Source: Terramyces sp. JEL0728
Taxonomy: Eukaryota > Chytridiomycota > Chytridiomycetes > Rhizophydiales > Terramycetaceae
Assembly: GCA_027603945.1 (NCBI GenBank)
Contig: JADIIU010000064.1
Coordinates: 1 to 64,000 of the forward strand
Reading direction: 5' to 3'
Length of the DNA stretch: 64,000 bases
Shown here: positions 41,801 through 53,449 of the stretch, in pieces
How positions within the stretch are numbered: the first letter of the stretch is position 1
How the letters are laid out: every line of letters starts with the position of its first letter
Notes under the pieces: model-generated
The model's input: only the letters and a program-made list of their open reading frames with translations
What the model was told of the DNA's origin: nothing
The model's database searches: none
Translations under genes and position numbers: made by a program

Positions 41801-43168
41801 TTAATTGCCCTTGTCGTTGTATCGACGAAGAAAAGAACCCCGTATAACAGGAGGCAGAGTCTCAGACTCTCTTCTATCCGCGCGGGTTTCTAGATAAGAA
41901 TCACTGATCACTGGCGGTAAAATGGCTCCTTCATAGTCACTGTATTCATCATAATGCGGTTCAGTATCATCAAATCTAGTTTTAGATTGATTGGACGCAA
42001 ATACAGTGTCGGCCATTAGTACCGGTGGCATTGCATTCTCAGTCGTTGGGGACTGCATCACTCCTGGATTAACCACTGGAGATCCAACAGACACTTGATA
42101 CTCTCTTGGTTGATTTGTGGGTAATGTGGTATTTCGCGGTGATGGATAGTTTGAGTGATTCATTTCAGTCGCTGCAGCCATAGGAGAATTTCTTGTTTCT
42201 CTTCTATAAGATTGCAGTGGAGATTGAATAGGAGCTTTTGCAGTGCTGTTGGAAGAACGACTTGAAACCGTTCCTTCCTTATCTGGATATTGACGCGCAG
42301 AAATAGGAGAGCTGTTGACAAGCGATGGTGAATATTGAGATACAGATGTTTCAGAAGAACCAGCCTTGCTGTACCTTTCATTGTGATATCCGTTGTTTGC
42401 CATCTGTTGATTTACGTATCTTTGAGTATGCGCCATTTTCAAATCATTATATTCCTTTGGGGGAGATTGTGGTGAAGTAGAAGGCGAGGACGTTGATTCG
42501 GTTCGTTTCCTTCTGGAGTTGTAAAAAGTAGCACCGATGGCAGCCATTGAAATTACTGCAACAACCACAACTATTCCAATAATTAATCTAAGCGGATGCG
42601 CCAACATTCCATTCGCAGTTGCGTTTTGCGAGTCTGGGTAAAATCTATGTGGAAGTGTAGTGCAGCTGAATTGAACATTTTCACAATGCAATGGCTTTGT
42701 CTTGACACATAAATTAGCATCGTACGGACATCCATTGTTATTTTCTGGATCAATCGTAGTTAAATTTGCATTTGCTAACGAATCCGGAATATATCCTGAA
42801 AACGAGTTCAAGTACATCTCAAACCTTGGCGTGCCAAACGACGTATTTGGCTGAATAGCAGGAATTTCTCCGTAAAAGTTGTTTTCGTCGACATCCAGCA
42901 CAGATAAGCTGAGTTTGGCCATTTCAGGCGGAAGTTCTCCAGTCAAATTGTTGGCAGCGACACTGAATATCCGTAAAGCATCCAATTTCCCAATATCGCT
43001 TGTAATTGTGCCATTGAGATAGTTTTCGTTCAGGTTAACTCGTTGAAGCCTTCCTTCAGAGCAAATTACTCTTGCCCTCCATGTGCAACAATTTGTCTGT
43101 GTAAGTGTTGTGTCTGTGCCTCCCATTGCTTGATACAACGCATAGAAAACTGGACAGTCTGCCGACAT
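41801..43168 (-). CDS. LRR single-pass membrane protein A (PPV[LI] tail)
   Basis: An intronless gene of 455 residues. It begins directly with the family's Cys-containing cap: MSADCPVFYALYQAMGG and TQTNCCTW. Plant-type LRRs follow (KLDALRIFSVAANNLTGELP, LSVLDVDENNFYGEIP), then a closing Cys cluster (GCPYDANLC...C...FSC). A transmembrane helix lies near residues 190-215 (LRLIIGIVVVVAVISMAAIG), followed by basic RRKR and a long Ser/Pro/Asn-rich tail. The tail carries three short repeats: MPPVLMAD, LPPVISDS, LPPVIRGS. No signal peptide precedes the cap; the upstream gap to gene B is only 88 bp and contains none. There is no kinase or RING domain. Probable surface receptor or adhesion protein; ligand unknown. 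Confidence 0.85.
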   Translation of the reverse strand: MSADCPVFYALYQAMGGTDTTLTQTNCCTWRARVICSEGRLQRVNLNENYLNGTITSDIGKLDALRIFSVAANNLTGELPPEMAKLSLSVLDVDENNFYGEIPAIQPNTSFGTPRFEMYLNSFSGYIPDSLANANLTTIDPENNNGCPYDANLCVKTKPLHCENVQFSCTTLPHRFYPDSQNATANGMLAHPLRLIIGIVVVVAVISMAAIGATFYNSRRKRTESTSSPSTSPQSPPKEYNDLKMAHTQRYVNQQMANNGYHNERYSKAGSSETSVSQYSPSLVNSSPISARQYPDKEGTVSSRSSNSTAKAPIQSPLQSYRRETRNSPMAAATEMNHSNYPSPRNTTLPTNQPREYQVSVGSPVVNPGVMQSPTTENAMPPVLMADTVFASNQSKTRFDDTEPHYDEYSDYEGAILPPVISDSYLETRADRRESETLPPVIRGSFLRRYNDKGN

Positions 43169-43256: not shown

Positions 43257-44672
43257 TTATTTCTCATCAAATGCCCGATTCCGAAGCTCATTCATTTCAG
43301 CCAAGAAATTATTTGGAATTGTTGGAGGCATCATCTCTACACTTTGCGATCCAACAGCGATTGTTGGCGGCATGAAATCTACATTACTTTTTTCGGTTTC
43401 TTCCTCTTGTTCTATAGCAAGTCTAGGCTCTTCTATCGGAATAGCTTGTTCTAAATGTCTCGGTTGTTGAGTTAAAGTTCCGCTCAAATCATTGTGTCTT
43501 GGCTGTGAACCAAGAGTTGCGAATTGCGGGTTGACTGTAGGTGTATCTGGAGTCATCAAGGTTGAAGATCGTGATGGAAGGTTGCCGGTAAGTGCGGGAG
43601 ATTGAGCGGTTGACGCATTTAAATCAAGAGGTTGTGGTTGGATGGTGGCTATAAACTGTTGGCCATTGATGGTAGTCAAGAATTGCTGTGGTTGATACCC
43701 AATTGCATTTCCATTTTGGTCAAGAATAGCGTTGGATATATTCGTGGACTGAAGGGATGGCGAGGATGGGACAAAAGCAGGATTTGGTGGTTGGACAAAT
43801 GGGGGTTGCCCAGGAATATACTGCGGTGTAGTGATTGGGCTTCCAGAAACTGGGTCAAAGGTGTACCCGCCTTCATTTTGGAATTGATTTGCTTGTTGGC
43901 CGACAAAGTTATGAATTGCCGAGCTTGTCTGCGGGGAATTGGCAGACTTAAGATCATCCACTTGCTTCTTCTTGGCAAATACAAGCAATGATACACCGAC
44001 TACAGCTGCAATCAACACTAATGCGCCAGCAGCCAACGCAAGAACATTTCCGGTATGTGAAAAAAACCCATCACCGCTATTAGACTGTGGAATGGTTGAA
44101 TTAGCAGTTGGAGTAGCAACTGCAAATCGATGAGGGACACTGGTACAAGTGAAAACTACATTGGCACAACCAAGAGGAGGAGATTTCACACACAGATTGC
44201 TGTCGAATGGCTACAGTTAATTGGCAATTACGCATCCTCCATTATCTTTTCCATTCACAGTAATATTGGCAGAATAAATTGAATCTGGCACATTTCCATT
44301 AAACCCATTCTTGTAAAATTCCGCATAATACTGGTTGAAATTAGTATCAAAAGTAAGCGCAGGTATAGATCCATAGAAATTGTTGTCGTCCACATCAAAA
44401 ACAGCGTATTTAGGGATAGTGATTTCTGGCGGTAATTCACCAGTGATTTTGTTTGAAGCTAAACTAAACAATTTTAATCCAGTCAACTTGCCAATATCAC
44501 TAGAAACAGTCCCATCCAAGCCCATCAATTCCAGTTTAATTTGGATAATTCTGTCTCCAGAACAAACTACTTTGTGAGCCTCCCATGAGCAGCAATTGGT
44601 CGTAGTTAACGTAGGATCGTTGCCTCCTAATGATTTAAATAGGTTATAAAATGCCGGGCAATCTGTTGACAT
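43257..44672 (-). CDS. LRR single-pass membrane protein B (PPTI tail)
   Basis: Two exons with a 21-nt intron at 44211-44231 give 464 residues. It is the closest relative of protein A: cap MSTDCPAFYNLFKSLGGND and TTNCCSW, LRRs (LKLFSLASNKITGELP, DDNNFYGSIP), closing Cys block GGCPFDSNLC, completed only by the splice. A transmembrane helix (VLALAAGALVLIAAVVGVSL) is followed by FAKKKQ and a 200-residue Gln/Pro/Asn-rich tail with MPPTIAVG and MPPTIPNN near the end. As with its neighbours, translation begins at the cap with no signal peptide. The intron lies in the same region as the join in paralogue E. Confidence 0.85.
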
Positions 44673-44805: not shown

Positions 44806-45762
44806 TTATTTATCAAACGGAATTCTCTTTACATCCGTGTACTCGTTTAAGCACAAGCTACTGGTATTAGTTTAATTTTACCACACACCATGTCGCGGAT
44901 TTAGTTGTGCGCAGCTTTTGCACAGAACTTTATGGTTACAAGGAAGTACCGCATGTGTTATACGTTCAAAAGTGCAATTCATGCAAGATGAATTTCTTTC
45001 CAACGTAAACATTGTGGATCCGGCTGTATTAGCAAATCCTCTTGAATTTCGTGTGCTGGATTCTTTACTGGGTTCTCGTTTGATTTCAAAGTCGCTGAGC
45101 TTGAATCGTTTAGAGCACAAACCAAAAGCAATCGATCCCAGCACCAAGAATCCTAAAACTAGCCCGCCTACAATGTAAGCAAAGATGGACGATAGCCCAA
45201 ATAATATTCCATTTGACGCTCCACCAGCACTGGAGGTTTGATTAAGAATATTAGGCGTGCATGTAAATGTAACATTAGGACAGGATAATACACTGGAATA
45301 GCTGCACATGTTATTATCAAATGGACAATCTCTAAATTGCTGTGCAGCTAATAACGGTGGAATATCATTTGCGCCAAAATAATTGTTTTTAAGATTAAAG
45401 TATGGTATTCCCAGTTCATTACTCCCACGTATAAAAGACAGTGTTGGTATCGTCCCACTCAATTTGTTGCCTCCCAAAAGAAATGCAGCAAACGATTGGT
45501 TGAATTGCGGTATATTCCCGTTCAAACCAATATCTGTCAACTGCAGGGTCTGAAGCAAAGTCAATTTAGTCAACTGCGATGATAATCGGCCTCCGTTTGG
45601 TAGGATTTTGTTATCCAGTGAGATTTGAAATATTTTGGAATCGCTGCATACTATATTTTGTGGTTTCCATGAGCAGCAATTGGTGTCAGTTAGTGAATTA
45701 TCATTCCCTCCTAATTCTTTGAATGCGTTAAAGAATATTTGGCAGTCAGTTTCTATATCCAT
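44806..45762 (-). CDS. LRR single-pass membrane protein C with cytosolic RING finger
   Basis: Two exons with a 21-nt intron at 44861-44881 give 311 residues. Cap: DCQIFFNAFKELGGNDNSL, TNCCSW. LRR-like turns include LLQTLQLTDIGLNGNIP and FNLKNNYFG. The Cys block is DCPFDNNMC...C...FTC. A transmembrane helix follows (YIVGGLVLGFLVLGSIAFGL). The tail is short and ends in a RING finger starting SCMNCTFERITHAVLPCNH. Ligand spacing is C-x2-C-x11-C-x-H-x3-C-x2-C-x9-C-x2-C, where the last Cys pair (CSLC) is encoded after the intron. Unspliced, the frame stops inside the RING right before that pair. This predicts a membrane-bound E3 ubiquitin ligase with an LRR ectodomain. Confidence 0.85.
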
Positions 45763-45931
45763 TGAAAAAGAATCGCAGTCGCATTCGGCAAATGAACGAA
45801 AGACCGAATTTAAAAGATGACAATCGAAAGTACAGCTGGATCAATTCCTCGGGATTAGCAGCTGTCACTGGCGAAGTTGGAAACAAAAGAATCTACTGCA
45901 AACAGACAATACAAGATATTTTATTTCTAAT

Positions 45932-47288
45932 CTAGTAATTGCGAGCCAAGAACAAAGCTGGAATAATCGGTATGTCCATTACTTGAGATTTAACCGGTTG
46001 AGCAACAAAGAATCGTTTATCACATAGATTACTAATATTAAAAGTAAATTACCATATTCCTCCTTCTGCATTCAATTCTGCGCATTCTGTACAAAACACT
46101 TCATGGTTACAAGGGCTGACGATGTGAGTGATCGCACTTTGGTGGCAGTTTAGACATACTTTACCGATTGAATTGCTATAGTGAGAGGGTAAATTGTAGG
46201 CTGATGGAATATTAGAGTAGTTTGCAGTGAGATTGATGTTGGCGGGAATGCTAGGATTCAATTCGTAGTTGGCTGATCTAGGTGCAGTTGCTTGGTATTC
46301 ATTTGAACTTGTCCCTGTCAATTGAACTGGTGCTCCAGGCTGTCCCAATAGCACTGCAGGTGAAAACATCTGGGGAGGCATGACTGGGCTTTGATAATTC
46401 AACCCAGGTGTATCATTAGATGAAGGGGGAGCTGGAGGATATCCATTGAGAGGAAATGGATTTCCATTGGATCTTGCGCCAACAGACGGCGCTTTTACAG
46501 AATTCTGTTGAGGTGCAGCCTTCTTTCTTCCTCCTAGCGTTACTACTGCAGCAATGATGAGAATGAAAAGTGCGCCTATCGCACCTCCAGCACCATAAAC
46601 TATATTTTTGTTCACTCCAAACAGCGTGTCACTCTGGCCATCAACTACAGGTGTGGTGGTTGCAGTAGGAGCAGGAATACCAGTAGCTGGAACAGCATTG
46701 GATTGGCAACTAAAAGCAACTCCAGGACAACTTGTAACAGTGCCAGATGCACACATGTTTGAAGCAAACGGACACTGCGATCCTTCCAGCCCAACACTAA
46801 AATCCACACTTGCCAAATTCGACGGCACTTTCTCTTTTCCAAACTGATTATTAGTTATGTTGAAAAATGGTTTCGTTACTCCAGCGACATTCGTGACATT
46901 AAATTGAAAATTAGGAATTGGACCGGATAATTGGTTGCCTTCTAATAGTAATACTGCAAATTGCTGTGGTAGCGGTGGAATTTGTCCAGTCAAACCTAGG
47001 AATCGCAATTGTAAACTGATGAGTGATTTTAACTGTCCCAAAAGGGGAGACATTGTCCCGCCTTTAACAGAAATATCCTTTGGGGTAAAAATTCTGAGTT
47101 AGTTACAGGTACATTTGGTTAATTTGAGAGATATTTTTCTCTGAGGCTTTGTCAAATGTTGTTGTGCAATTAACGTTTCTTGGGGACCATTGGCAACAGT
47201 TGCTTGCTGTTAGATTCGTTAGTTGGCCATTCAGCGCTCTATATATTGTTGCAAATGCTGGGCAGTCTGGTGCGTCTGCATTCGACAT
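45932..47288 (-). CDS. LRR single-pass membrane protein D with cytosolic RING finger
   Basis: Three exons, with introns at 47094-47112 (19 nt) and 46032-46052 (21 nt), give 438 residues. Cap: DCPAFATIYRALNGQL, SNCCQW. LRRs: LISLQLRFLGLTGQIP, LLLEGNQLSGPIP. Cys block: QCPFASNMC...C...FSC, then a transmembrane helix (GAGGAIGALFILIIAAVVTL). The Pro/Asn-rich tail ends in the RING VCLNCHQSAITHIVSPCNH, finishing with CNLC after the second intron, at exactly the ligand spacing of C and E. A further in-frame ATG at 47396 would add 36 hydrophilic residues, not a signal peptide. The RING-splitting intron is at the same codon and phase in C, D and E. Confidence 0.85.
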
Positions 47289-47451
47289 TTCACAAAAAAC
47301 CTCAAAGAAACTTTCCCGATTTTCACGGGACTTTTGATATTGGATCATATCAGAGTGTCTGCAGTTTTGAAAGGGATATTCTCGGTAGACGTGCATCGAG
47401 TGTTATTAATTCACGGCATGCATTGTGGCCGATAATGGAAAACGTGTTTAT

Positions 47452-48719
47452 TCAGTATCTATAGCGTGGTTGACTGTCATCTGCCTGTGGTGTGTTGTAT
47501 CTAGGGTGTTCAGATACCTCGGTGGCTGCATACCTAGGATGGTCAGAGGTTTGAGCAGGAGATTGCTCAAACCTTGGAGGTGATGTTTCAATAACGGTTT
47601 GTTCTACACGTGGTTGTTGGGCATCACTGTGAATAGGTTGTGCAATCAAAAATCGTTGGTTGCACAGATTGCTAGGGTTAGTATAGAGTTACCAGACACC
47701 GCCGTCGGCATTTAGCTCAGCACATGCAGTACAAAAGATTTCGTGTCCACAAGGAATTACGGCATGGGTTTTCGGATTGAATCCACAGTTCAAGCATATA
47801 TTGTTTGGCTGTTGAGGGCTAGGTACAGGGGTAAGCACAACATACTGTTGGCCATTTGGCAACACATATCCAGCTGGACCTTGATAAGATTGTTGCGGCG
47901 GAGAATATTGTTGGGCAAAAATATTTCCGTTCTTGATAGACTCTGCTGGAGGTGCCTGTGCAGTTGGCTTCTTTTTCCCAACAAACAGCATTGCAGAAAC
48001 TACAATCAAGATTAGGAGAGCGATAGCCCCTCCTCCAACCCCATAAGCTACTGGCTTGTCCAAGCCAAAAATGGTATCTGCACTGGTAGTTTGTTTAGGA
48101 GCGGAAGTTGAATTTGCTGATGGTGTGCTAGTAGCTAGTTGGTCCGCTTGACAGGTAAAAATAACTCCAGGACAACTTTGAACAGTAACATTGGAACACT
48201 AACATGAAAAGAAATATACCATATTAGTAGCGAATGGACATCCAACATTAGCATTCCAGTTGATTCCAGCCAATTTAGGTGGAATAGTAACACCCCCAAA
48301 GTTGTTGTTTTTCAAATTCAAGAAAGGATTTCCCAACTGTGCGTTGTTTATAAAGAAATTCAAGTCTGGAATAGGTCCTGATAATTGGTTTCCAGCCAAC
48401 AATAATCCAGATAGCATTTGTGGTAAGGGAGGAATTGGGCCTGTCAATCCGATATCAGTCAACTGTAAGGTTTGAAGTGTAGGCAATTTTGCAAAAAGCG
48501 GTGATATTGAACCGCCTTTGATTGGAAACGACTTTGCATTGAAAGAACTAGATTAATTCAAGAGTACATTTGATAAATATTGGTTGTATTTCCAGGTTTA
48601 GCACACACGACGTTGTTTGGAAACAGTGTACAGCAATTGGTATTTGTTAGTGAAGTATTTGTTCCTCCCAATTGTCTGTAGATTTGAGCGAATATGGGGC
48701 AATCTGGCGACGAATCCAT
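47452..48719 (-). CDS. LRR single-pass membrane protein E with cytosolic RING finger
   Basis: Four exons, with introns at 48548-48567, 48199-48219 and 47672-47692 (20, 21 and 21 nt), give 401 residues. Cap: DCPIFAQIYRQLGG, TNTNCCT. LRRs: LQTLQLTDIGLTGPIP, LLLAGNQLSGPIP, FLNLKNNNFG. Cys block GCPFATNMC...CPG..FTC joined by the second intron. Transmembrane helix GGGAIALLILIVVSAMLFVG. RING near residues 293-332: ICLNCGFNPKTHAVIPCGH, closed by CNLC across the third intron. The tail after the RING repeats HPRY-type motifs (SDHPRYAA, SEHPRYNT, QPRYRY). An upstream in-frame ATG (48800) exists but gives no signal peptide. Confidence 0.85.
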
Positions 48720-49087: not shown

Positions 49088-50038
49088 TTATTCAGATATA
49101 TTCTCAATATACAAAGTGTTATTAAACTTTAACGTTTCATTCCCCCAGCTTGTCCATCCTTCTAGACAACACCTGCTAAACAGTTCGAGCTTCCTTTCGC
49201 CGTCAAACATGTCCAAGACTGGCTTTTTTGAATGAAATGTCGGCATTCCGGTTAAACTGATCATGCCGGGCAGTTCTTTCTTGTACAGGTGATATTGGCA
49301 GATATATGCGATTTCGTATGGCTTTCTATGTGGATTATCCAGCTCTGTAATTAATTCGCCTTGATGATTCACTTTAATCCACACTAGTTTAGATGTACAT
49401 TCAAGCCCATACGCAGGCAATAGTTTATCAAGAACAAATCGATGATATTTACTATTGTTTGTAATCCAGATGACTAATATCCCTGTGTCTGATAGTATCT
49501 GCCTCATTGGAATTTTGAATAATTCGTAATGGTCGAGCTCATTGTAAGCATTACTACGAGCTACACTTGCATTTGACCAAGGAGGATCCATTACTACCAA
49601 ATCGTACTTGCCTTTAATTTCCCAATTATGAAATTCAGACAAATGAAAATTGCAGTGCGGTGGAATCAGATACTCATGAATTGAGACATAAACCCAAAGA
49701 CAGTCGTTGGTATCGTTTACGAACTCGGTCTCTATCAAGTTTTCGATTTTGATTTCCTGATGATTTGACAGATAAACAGGCTGCGATACACATAAATTAC
49801 TTTGTGATTCTTTCGTCTGAAGGGCAACAAAATCCAGACCATTAAATTCTTGGAAATTGTATTCTGGCTCTGAGATTTGAAATGGAGTTTCAAGGCTTTT
49901 CTTGATGAATTCTCTGAATTGCTGATGGATCTCTATGAACTGATCGAATGCTTTCCGCTTCTTGTTTGATCTGAATATTTTGATTTCCTTTTGCTTGTAT
50001 TTAATTATTCCGATTTTGTCAATGTAGTGCGATTGCAT
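49088..50038 (-). CDS. MT-A70 family N6-adenine methyltransferase, METTL4-like
   Basis: A single exon of 316 residues from ATG 50038. The catalytic motif is DPPW (VVMDPPWSNASVARSNAY). The AdoMet/target-recognition blocks follow: GILVIWITNNSKYHRFV, NPHRKPYEIAYIC-like (DNPHRKPYEIAYICQYHLY) and the final HSKKPVLDMF with EGWTSWGNE. The order and the NPHRKPYE segment fit the METTL4 clade, which methylates adenine in U2 snRNA or DNA, rather than the METTL3/14 mRNA writers. DNA 6mA is known to be abundant in several early-diverging fungi; a role in that is inference. The basic N-terminus could bind nucleic acid. Confidence 0.88.
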   Translation of the reverse strand: MQSHYIDKIGIIKYKQKEIKIFRSNKKRKAFDQFIEIHQQFREFIKKSLETPFQISEPEYNFQEFNGLDFVALQTKESQSNLCVSQPVYLSNHQEIKIENLIETEFVNDTNDCLWVYVSIHEYLIPPHCNFHLSEFHNWEIKGKYDLVVMDPPWSNASVARSNAYNELDHYELFKIPMRQILSDTGILVIWITNNSKYHRFVLDKLLPAYGLECTSKLVWIKVNHQGELITELDNPHRKPYEIAYICQYHLYKKELPGMISLTGMPTFHSKKPVLDMFDGERKLELFSRCCLEGWTSWGNETLKFNNTLYIENISE

Positions 50039-50170
50039 TTCGAATTTCAAACAAATTTACCAGTATGACTTTTTTAAATTATGAATTGAATTGTAGTAAT
50101 CTATATCAATATGAAATTAATGCCAAACCTCCAGTTCAAGTGGCGCTCAACTTGAACTTTCCCAAAGCAA

Positions 50171-51708: not shown

Positions 51709-53449
51709 TTATTTAAAATGCTCAGCATTCTGGTATTCTACTTGTTCTTGGTCAACGTAATACAACTGCGATGGGTCAACGAACGTGTATCCAAACGAAG
51801 GATCAACTTGGTTGTGGGCATAAGCTTGAGTCTGGGTACGACCAACTTCATAAGCTTGTATTTGAGAGGGATCAACATAAGTGTATTGATAAGCTTGGTT
51901 TGGATCGTAATAAACATTCGATTGAGGTGGTTCTTGAGGAACAGGTAAAGGTAATTGATTGGCAAACTGCATTGCAGAAGATCTATTAGTAATCTCTTTC
52001 GAAACATATTCTAAAGGTGATTTCTTTGTTTGATAGGTATAAACTTTACCATCAGGTGTTTGGTAGCTTTGCGTGTCTATTTCTTCAGGCTTCTGGTAAT
52101 TCAATGGCGGCTGATCTAAATCAATGTATTTTGGAGACTGTTCTTGCTGAATATTTTTGCCACGGCGAGCAGAGTCGTTAAATTCGTCATCTGGATTGTA
52201 AACTGTGCTTGGGGCAACAGCAACTGGGGTAGTTGGTGTACGGTGAGAATGAGCAGACGGAGCATGATGAGAGTGTGTTGAAGGTGCTTTATAAGATACA
52301 GCCGAGTTTGCTGATTGAATTGGCGGCGAATATCCCTTGGAGTAGGCGGTGGGAACGTATTGGTGAGCAGAGTACATAGAACCTGCAACATATCCAGAAT
52401 GAACTGAAGGAGTGTGGCCAGAATGAACCGATGATACTGCGGTGATTGGGGTTGTAAATTGCGCTGAAGAAGGGGAAATAGGAGCAACTAGGGGATCAGT
52501 TGAATGACCCGAAGTGGATCTGATTTGAGCATCAGAATAGCCACTGTAAGCAGCAGGCATAGCTCTATTGTCGGGAATAATCGGCAGGCTATATGCTGCA
52601 ACAGGCGAATGGGAGAGGGGCATATTCAATGTTGAGGCACTTTGATGTGTAGGAGCAATCATTGGGTGTTCGTGTTGCAACGGCGGCTGGTACGGTCTGT
52701 TGGATATTTCAGTGTGATACATGGTAGGCACACTTCTTGGTTTGATATCACTGACTTTTGCGTTTCCTCTCTTGAAGTGCCAAACTGTTCCAACGACAAT
52801 GACGATAAGTAAGAGCGCACCGCCAATACCAATGGCTGCAATCAAACCAGTTGACAATGCAGCCGAGCTGCTACTCGAACCACCTTTTATTGAACAAGTG
52901 AAAGCTGTGCTGTTGCATCCATAAGGCTTCACATTGTTGAACGGACACATGTTTGTATCAAAAGGACATTCATCCGCACTCTTTGTGTTGTCAACAAGCA
53001 ATCCAGGCCTGGTCAAATTGGCAGGAATTTGTCCGGCAAAGTTATTGTTTCTGAAACTAAAGTACACGTTTGGTACATTCAAGGTTTGCAATTCCGGGAT
53101 ATTCCCAGTCAAGCTGTTGTTACTAAGGTCCCTAGCGTCAACTATTATTACATGTTTGACCATATTGGGCGGGTAAATGTTAGCGGAATGCTTCCTGTGA
53201 GTTTCGAATTTGGCATTTGAAGCACTCTAATCTTTTTCAAAGTCCCAATATCCGCTGGTAACTGCGCTCCGCCAGTATTGAAATTTGGCAGTGTTCTATG
53301 TTAATTTACAAGTACATTTGTACAATGTTTCCTTGTGAATCGCATTGCACCATAGTCTTGTCAAACTTGCAGCAGTTGGAGTCTGTTAGAAGCGGATAGT
53401 TCCCACCAAGGTCTTGGAACACCTTGTAAAACACTTGACAATCTGTCAT
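51709..53449 (-). CDS. LRR single-pass membrane protein F with Tyr/Pro-rich tail
   Basis: Three exons, with 20-nt introns at 53296-53315 and 53132-53151, give 566 residues. Cap: MTDCQVFYKVFQDLGGNYP, DSNCCKF, again without a signal peptide. LRRs: KIRVLQMPNSKLTGSIP and, across the second intron, MDLSNNSLTGNIPELQTL. Cys block ECPFDTNMC...C...FTC. Transmembrane helix GLIAAIGIGGALLLIVIVVG, then HFKRG. The 350-residue tail is His/Ser/Tyr/Pro-rich (SVHSGHTPSVHSGY, SAHSHRTP) and ends with YVDPSQ repeats. No RING and only one weak PPL site (DQPPLNY). It is the most diverged LRR paralogue here and separated from the others by two genes. Confidence 0.83.

Follow-up and report, generated by a model that had tools for sequence, protein, structure and literature searches.

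A tandem of three LRR-TM-RING genes in the chytrid Terramyces encodes candidate membrane-anchored ubiquitin ligases

What does a plant-type receptor ectodomain do on the same chain as a RING finger in a chytrid fungus, and is that RING encoded in full? The question is raised by three genes, named C, D and E, that lie head-to-tail on the minus strand at positions 44806-48719 of a 64,000-nucleotide (nt) stretch of Terramyces sp. JEL0728 DNA (the window). Terramyces belongs to the Rhizophydiales (Chytridiomycota), in line with the zoosporic fungus of the original prediction. This window is part of contig C64 (78,452 bases), in an assembly of 15.0 Mb and 231 contigs. Each gene encodes an LRR-TM-RING protein (LRR, leucine-rich repeat; TM, transmembrane) built in the same order: plant-type LRRs between a cysteine cap and a second cysteine block, then a single TM helix, then a C3HC4 RING. 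The original prediction had proposed three such genes at these positions, and all three were found there.

Spliced models built from the sequence have 311 amino acids for C, 438 for D (taking the Met that precedes the cap as the start) and 401 for E. Gene C (44806-45762) comprises exons 45762-44882 and 44860-44806, the first of which is present in the public model P0015; its TM helix, located by hydropathy, lies at 45109-45186 and its RING, intron included, at 44851-44985. Gene D (45932-47288; exons 47288-47113, 47093-46053 and 46031-45932) has an orthologue, P0128, in Boothiomyces macroporosus; its TM helix lies at 46526-46603 by hydropathy and its RING, intron included, at 46022-46156. Gene E (47452-48719; exons 48719-48568, 48547-48220, 48198-47693 and 47671-47452) has its RING, intron included, at 47662-47796 and its TM helix at 47968-48045, supported by hydropathy and by an AlphaFold2 helix at 208-232 with a low predicted local distance difference test score (pLDDT). 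The spliced model of E is 100% identical to the public protein HDV01_006496, whose introns measure 20, 21 and 21 nt. Beyond the intron in the RING, D requires a 19-nt intron (47094-47112, a join over which P0128 is continuous) and E a 20-nt intron (48548-48567) behind the cap, and E has one further 21-nt intron (48199-48219); both of these E introns are present in the public model. All LRR gene models allowed introns of 18-23 nt only and took the Met nearest the cap, so that tallies of intron lengths and starts lean accordingly; the join counts and the upstream-start test below are less subject to this bias.

The RING is completed by splicing. C, D and E each carry a 21-nt phase 2 intron, at 44861-44881 in C, 46032-46052 in D and 47672-47692 in E (the last present in the public model), which interrupts the codon for ligand 7, the Cys that opens the last pair, leaving TG before the intron and T (C and D) or C (E) after it. 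Without splicing, the three proteins all finish in Trp-stop, because each RING intron starts GTAA. With splicing, the pattern C-x2-C-x11-C-x-H-x3-C-x2-C-x9-C-x2-C is present in five of five proteins, namely C, D, E and two Boothiomyces orthologues of E. Identical ligand spacing, with all eight ligands complete after splicing, and a last Cys pair encoded beyond a 21-nt intron at the same codon had both been anticipated; the latter is refined here to a phase 2 intron within the ligand 7 codon. The PF13920 profile, with a cut-off of 27 bits, scored 28.1 for E, 30.3 for P0002 and 29.3 for P0003. A profile and sequence search of the PDB placed the RING nearest those of XIAP, cIAP and MEX3C, with TRIM21 and CBL-B also listed; these matches are weak (E-value 6e-4 at best) and belong to otherwise different proteins. 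Comparison of E with its two Boothiomyces orthologues demonstrated that the RING is the best conserved segment, with 35/38 and 36/38 residues identical (92-95%), and between D and E the RING is identical at 26/38 positions and the ectodomain at 91/176. Orthologues of both D and E are thus found in a second genus, P0128 being identical to D at 281 of 437 residues.

The closest folds of the LRR region are those of SOBIR1, SERK1, TMM and other plant receptors, with both caps matched, and the LRR fold is backed by a sequence profile as well as by a predicted model. None of the Pfam LRR models, LRR_1 included, scored over its cut-off on C, D or E. Each protein has one strong hydrophobic stretch, with a net charge of +2 to +4 behind it and of 0, 0 and -1 before it, and the segment before the helix carries an even count of conserved cap Cys and Asn-glycosylation motifs. 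The receptor-type LRR region and the single TM helix of the original prediction are thereby borne out; its term ectodomain implies an outward placement of the LRR side, which we infer from the TM helix and the charge rule.

The reading that we favour, with moderate confidence, is that C, D and E are membrane-anchored RING E3 ligases with a SERK/SOBIR1-shaped LRR ectodomain, within an LRR-TM family of about 20 members; this reading is plausible, and the anatomy behind it is conserved over the two genera. The short plant-type LRR domain with its two disulphide caps would face the outside or the lumen of a compartment, and, with no cleavable signal peptide present, the single TM helix and the basic residues after it would act as a reverse signal anchor. 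The C3HC4 RING, borne on a flexible cytosolic linker, would recruit an E2 and ubiquitinate what the LRR side holds, most probably sibling LRR-TM proteins or some other protein of the membrane. Ubiquitin-ligase activity and substrates are what we infer, and control by a ligand is conjecture. If C, D and E are active, they would represent a fungal LRR receptor with direct ubiquitination, a layout undescribed in the literature searched, and could serve as a compact model of ligases under receptor control.

The same parts could also make a ligase for membrane quality control or turnover, in which the LRR side grips a fixed membrane partner with no ligand switching. The ectodomain is in keeping with this, as it is short, of SERK/SOBIR1 size and co-receptor-like rather than of the long ligand-binding type; however, the tandem expansion of LRR-TM genes (A to G) suits diversifying recognition better. 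We regard a quality-control ligase as a real possibility, though not the expected one.

Several features weigh against the receptor-ligase assignment. PF13920 remains below its cut-off for C (26.2 bits) and D (23.7 bits), and the PDB profile match, to XIAP, runs over profile positions 2-34 and for the most part leaves out the last two ligands. The last two Cys are separated by NL or SL, with no Pro, and N, D or L follows the last Cys; a Pro between these two Cys and an Arg or Lys after the last one are common in active RINGs, though not needed in every one. In the comparison of D with its orthologue the readable RING is less conserved (27/34 identical) than the ectodomain (157/188), and C and E share 21/38 residues of the RING versus 87/168 of the ectodomain. 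AlphaFold2, run with a seven-row alignment, gave a block-mean pLDDT of 24-47 for the RING and 36-55 for the TM region, and C, D and E have no hydrophobic start or signal peptide. Taken at their strongest, the RING features would describe a genuine zinc-binding finger that is no ligase and serves for dimerisation or docking in a receptor or adhesion protein: the Cys-Pro and the linchpin-type basic residue are both missing, C and D are sub-threshold, and 17 sibling LRR-TM proteins do without a RING, if they are functional. We hold this explanation to be doubtful, in view of eight ligands and a spacing kept in all five proteins and of an E RING almost unchanged across genera.

The missing signal peptide bears on topology. 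Should the LRR side be cytosolic, the RING, if folded, would be on the opposite side, or the protein would sit on an organelle. Of the 20 LRR-TM genes modelled, 18 were searched for extended starts within 400 nt upstream, with at most one intron of 17-120 nt allowed. No alternative upstream start path was present in 12 of the 18, and the six with one gave best hydropathies of 0.58 (A), 0.84 (D), 1.12 (E), 0.27 (F), 1.75 (L018) and -0.23 (L035). A soluble LRR gene on contig C140, whose evident signal peptide is followed by a 20-nt intron, served as positive control and reached 1.46, less than L018; it was the single control scored, a second position being too close to the end of its locus. A signal-peptide-like start is thus missing from 17 of the 18 genes tested, C, D and E included, the exception being L018. 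In 19 of 20 models the first cap Cys comes 2 to 9 residues after the Met used (54 residues in one, on contig C77). Our script took the nearest Met, which is also the start in the public models of Terramyces E and C and of Boothiomyces E and D. Against an inverted protein stand the basic residues after the helix, the even number of cap Cys and the Asn-glycosylation motifs before it, and the caps typical of plant ectodomains. In the same charge comparison, 16 of 20 rows have a net charge of +2 to +5 after the helix; the remaining four have 0, -4, -1 and -1, and one of these is L030, which has no clear TM helix. We consider the inverted topology unlikely; the lack of a signal peptide, together with a TM helix and its flanking charge, makes a reverse signal anchor the likeliest mode of membrane entry.

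To assess the very short introns we counted joins that link two frames of at least 45 codons each through GTA..[CT]AG. The window holds 13, 17 and 9 such joins at 19, 20 and 21 nt, 39 in total, versus 3, 10, 3 and 8 for four permuted motifs, and the real joins peak at these lengths. At 30-80 nt no excess was seen (139 real versus 135, 88, 137 and 104). The motif had been tightened after a first look at GT..AG, a noisy test that gave 32, 33 and 19 joins at 19, 20 and 21 nt, where five controls reached as many as 31, 32 and 12; the strict test was then repeated elsewhere, on 31 loci of other contigs (kept from 89 fetched, with 25 on contig C64 and 33 judged overlapping or duplicate dropped). There it returned 62 real joins of 19-21 nt versus 7, 6, 7 and 5 permuted ones. 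Introns of 19-21 nt are the usual class in this 15-Mb chytrid genome and are not special to C, D and E. Of the 27 introns in the LRR models, 20 contain a YTRAY motif, mostly placed so that its A precedes the exon by 5 or 6 nt. That the 21-nt segments are no introns and that the genes encode plain LRR-TM proteins ending GVW or GIW, as the public Boothiomyces D model does, is highly improbable, given this general intron class, three paralogues that regain the same ligand pair solely through splicing, and a joined RING in the public E models of Terramyces and both Boothiomyces.

Two further candidates were rejected. Read-through or pseudogene status is at odds with three paralogues and their orthologues, which retain frame and ligands only if spliced. 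Retention of the RING intron would leave a receptor with six of the eight ligands and could act as a switch; as the principal explanation, an intron switch peculiar to C, D and E fails on the genome-wide intron class and on P0016. In this metagenome protein, which by eye is almost a copy of the E protein of B. macroporosus, the intron is read through with a frame shift and no Trp-stop, so the Trp-stop is not kept there.

Introns of 15-16 nt are described for Stentor (PMC9505925), and of 18-24 bp for chlorarachniophyte nucleomorphs (PMC4035089), which those of Terramyces match in shortness. No report of chytrid introns this short was found in the literature searched.

The expectation that gene callers would truncate the RING held in part. 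P0128 ends in ...AELNAEGGIW, and P0015 fuses C to gene B and loses the RING; E, on the other hand, is annotated whole in Terramyces, and the joined RING is present in the E models of both Boothiomyces. The protein searches made returned no public model for D of Terramyces. Gene callers that bar introns below about 25 nt can clip a RING, as in P0128.

How widespread is the architecture? Protein searches found LRR-TM-RING proteins in Terramyces and Boothiomyces, plus one metagenome fragment without the ectodomain. Among the best 120 of 505 proteins of a profile search, PF13920 was present in P0001, P0002, P0003 and P0016 only. A TM-RING search, with 198 candidates scored, returned P0001, P0002, P0003 and P0128 at E-values up to 10; it covered proteins of about 0.55 to 1.75 times 401 amino acids, a range that longer LRR-TM-RING proteins would escape. 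A metagenome protein, P0012, combines LRR repeats with a U-box-like domain in its Pfam list. The claim that the layout is undescribed stood, as no LRR-TM-RING family was found in the literature searched, which was not exhaustive; among papers on chytrid genomes, passages of PMC5364385 and PMC13391722 contain nothing on it, and the terms sought do not occur in PMC9926174. A 2010 survey of fungal genomes gives just five LRR-TM proteins, none with another functional domain (PMC2939053). LRR_1 falls under its cut-off on C, D and E, so surveys based on this model, the 2010 one included, could miss such proteins.

Among known systems, plant SERK1/BAK1 and SOBIR1 resemble C, D and E in ectodomain length, fold and both caps. 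Plant LRR receptor kinases differ in their kinase domain, for which C, D and E gave no Pfam match, having instead a RING and no cleavable signal peptide. Trypanosome ESAG8 combines LRRs with a RING-like finger; it is nuclear and has no TM helix. LRSAM1 is cytosolic and has SAM and PTAP parts, whereas C, D and E carry a TM helix and show no SAM/PTAP-type Pfam match. LRSAM1 too has LRRs and a RING on one protein, and is an E3 ligase according to a title cited in PMC12375608. In the animal PA-TM-RING proteins ZNRF3/RNF43 a single chain likewise runs from an ectodomain through one TM helix to a cytosolic RING, and the ectodomain binds R-spondin together with the LRR receptor LGR4 (PMC10319729). 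Their ectodomain is protease-associated, a domain with no Pfam match in C, D or E up to an E-value of 1, whereas C, D and E have LRRs, no signal peptide and a RING of a different subtype, C3HC4_3. Ectodomain-TM-RING ligases whose ectodomain binds a ligand are thus already known, and the putative LRR version would be new by its architecture.

C, D and E belong to a larger family. Ectodomain searches identified seven members on contig C64, six of them (A to F) within the window and G at 68.2-68.7 kb, plus further ones spread over eleven contigs. Twenty LRR-TM models were built, on contigs C64, C5, C131, C219, C3, C44, C48, C67, C77 and C120, leaving out L017 (nearly a duplicate of L018), L030 (without a clear TM helix) and a partial copy of L022; the tail of L018 is doubtful, and the model of L037 extends past the end of its locus. 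A genome search with the E RING returned, besides C, D and E themselves, a single RING on contig C119 that looks unrelated (33% identity). A tree of 17 ectodomain rows groups the five RING rows together (support 78/89; 77% of 200 bootstrap trees), and we favour a single gain of the RING. Of eight sibling tails scanned, that of L037 (contig C67, 46.8-48.5 kb) has an SH3 domain, scoring 28.2 bits against a cut-off of 22.9, and the other seven have no domain over cut-off. Only tentatively do we suggest a Terramycetaceae receptor system: some 20 LRR-TM proteins lacking signal peptides would have SERK-like ectodomains and different outputs (RING in C, D and E, SH3 on contig C67, QPP[ILVM][ILV] tails), and direct ubiquitination would take the role of the plant kinase; such a set would stand in a kingdom reported to be nearly devoid of LRR receptors.

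The motif QPP[ILVM][ILV] occurs ten times in 6 of 20 tails (L018, L022, L038, L040, L042 and L083) and is not present in the tails of C, D and E; 2000 shuffles gave a mean of 0.1 and a maximum of 2, the motif having been spotted before it was counted. The tail of E behind the RING (47452-47671) has five x-Pro-Arg-[Val/Phe/Tyr] repeats, seen by eye in the Boothiomyces orthologues too.

Three further paralogues on the minus strand of the window have no RING: A (41801-43168), with a disordered-looking tail, B (43257-44672), with a 21-nt intron at 44211-44231, and F (51709-53449), with introns at 53296-53315 and 53132-53151 and a tail without the RING pattern. Next to E lies a METTL4-like (MT-A70) gene (49088-50050, minus strand), 66% identical (192/289) to the N-terminal part of P0003, which has the MT-A70 domain. 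A METTL4-like gene lies beside the E orthologue in B. macroporosus too, and the two are fused in P0003, probably an annotation error. Rfam and tRNA scans of the window gave no match, and an NCBIfam scan gave one weak match. Elsewhere in the genome, contig C29 carries two sets of three RING genes, at 24.6-27.6 kb and 51.6-54.5 kb, with pairwise equal scores and about 27 kb apart, which look like a segmental duplication.

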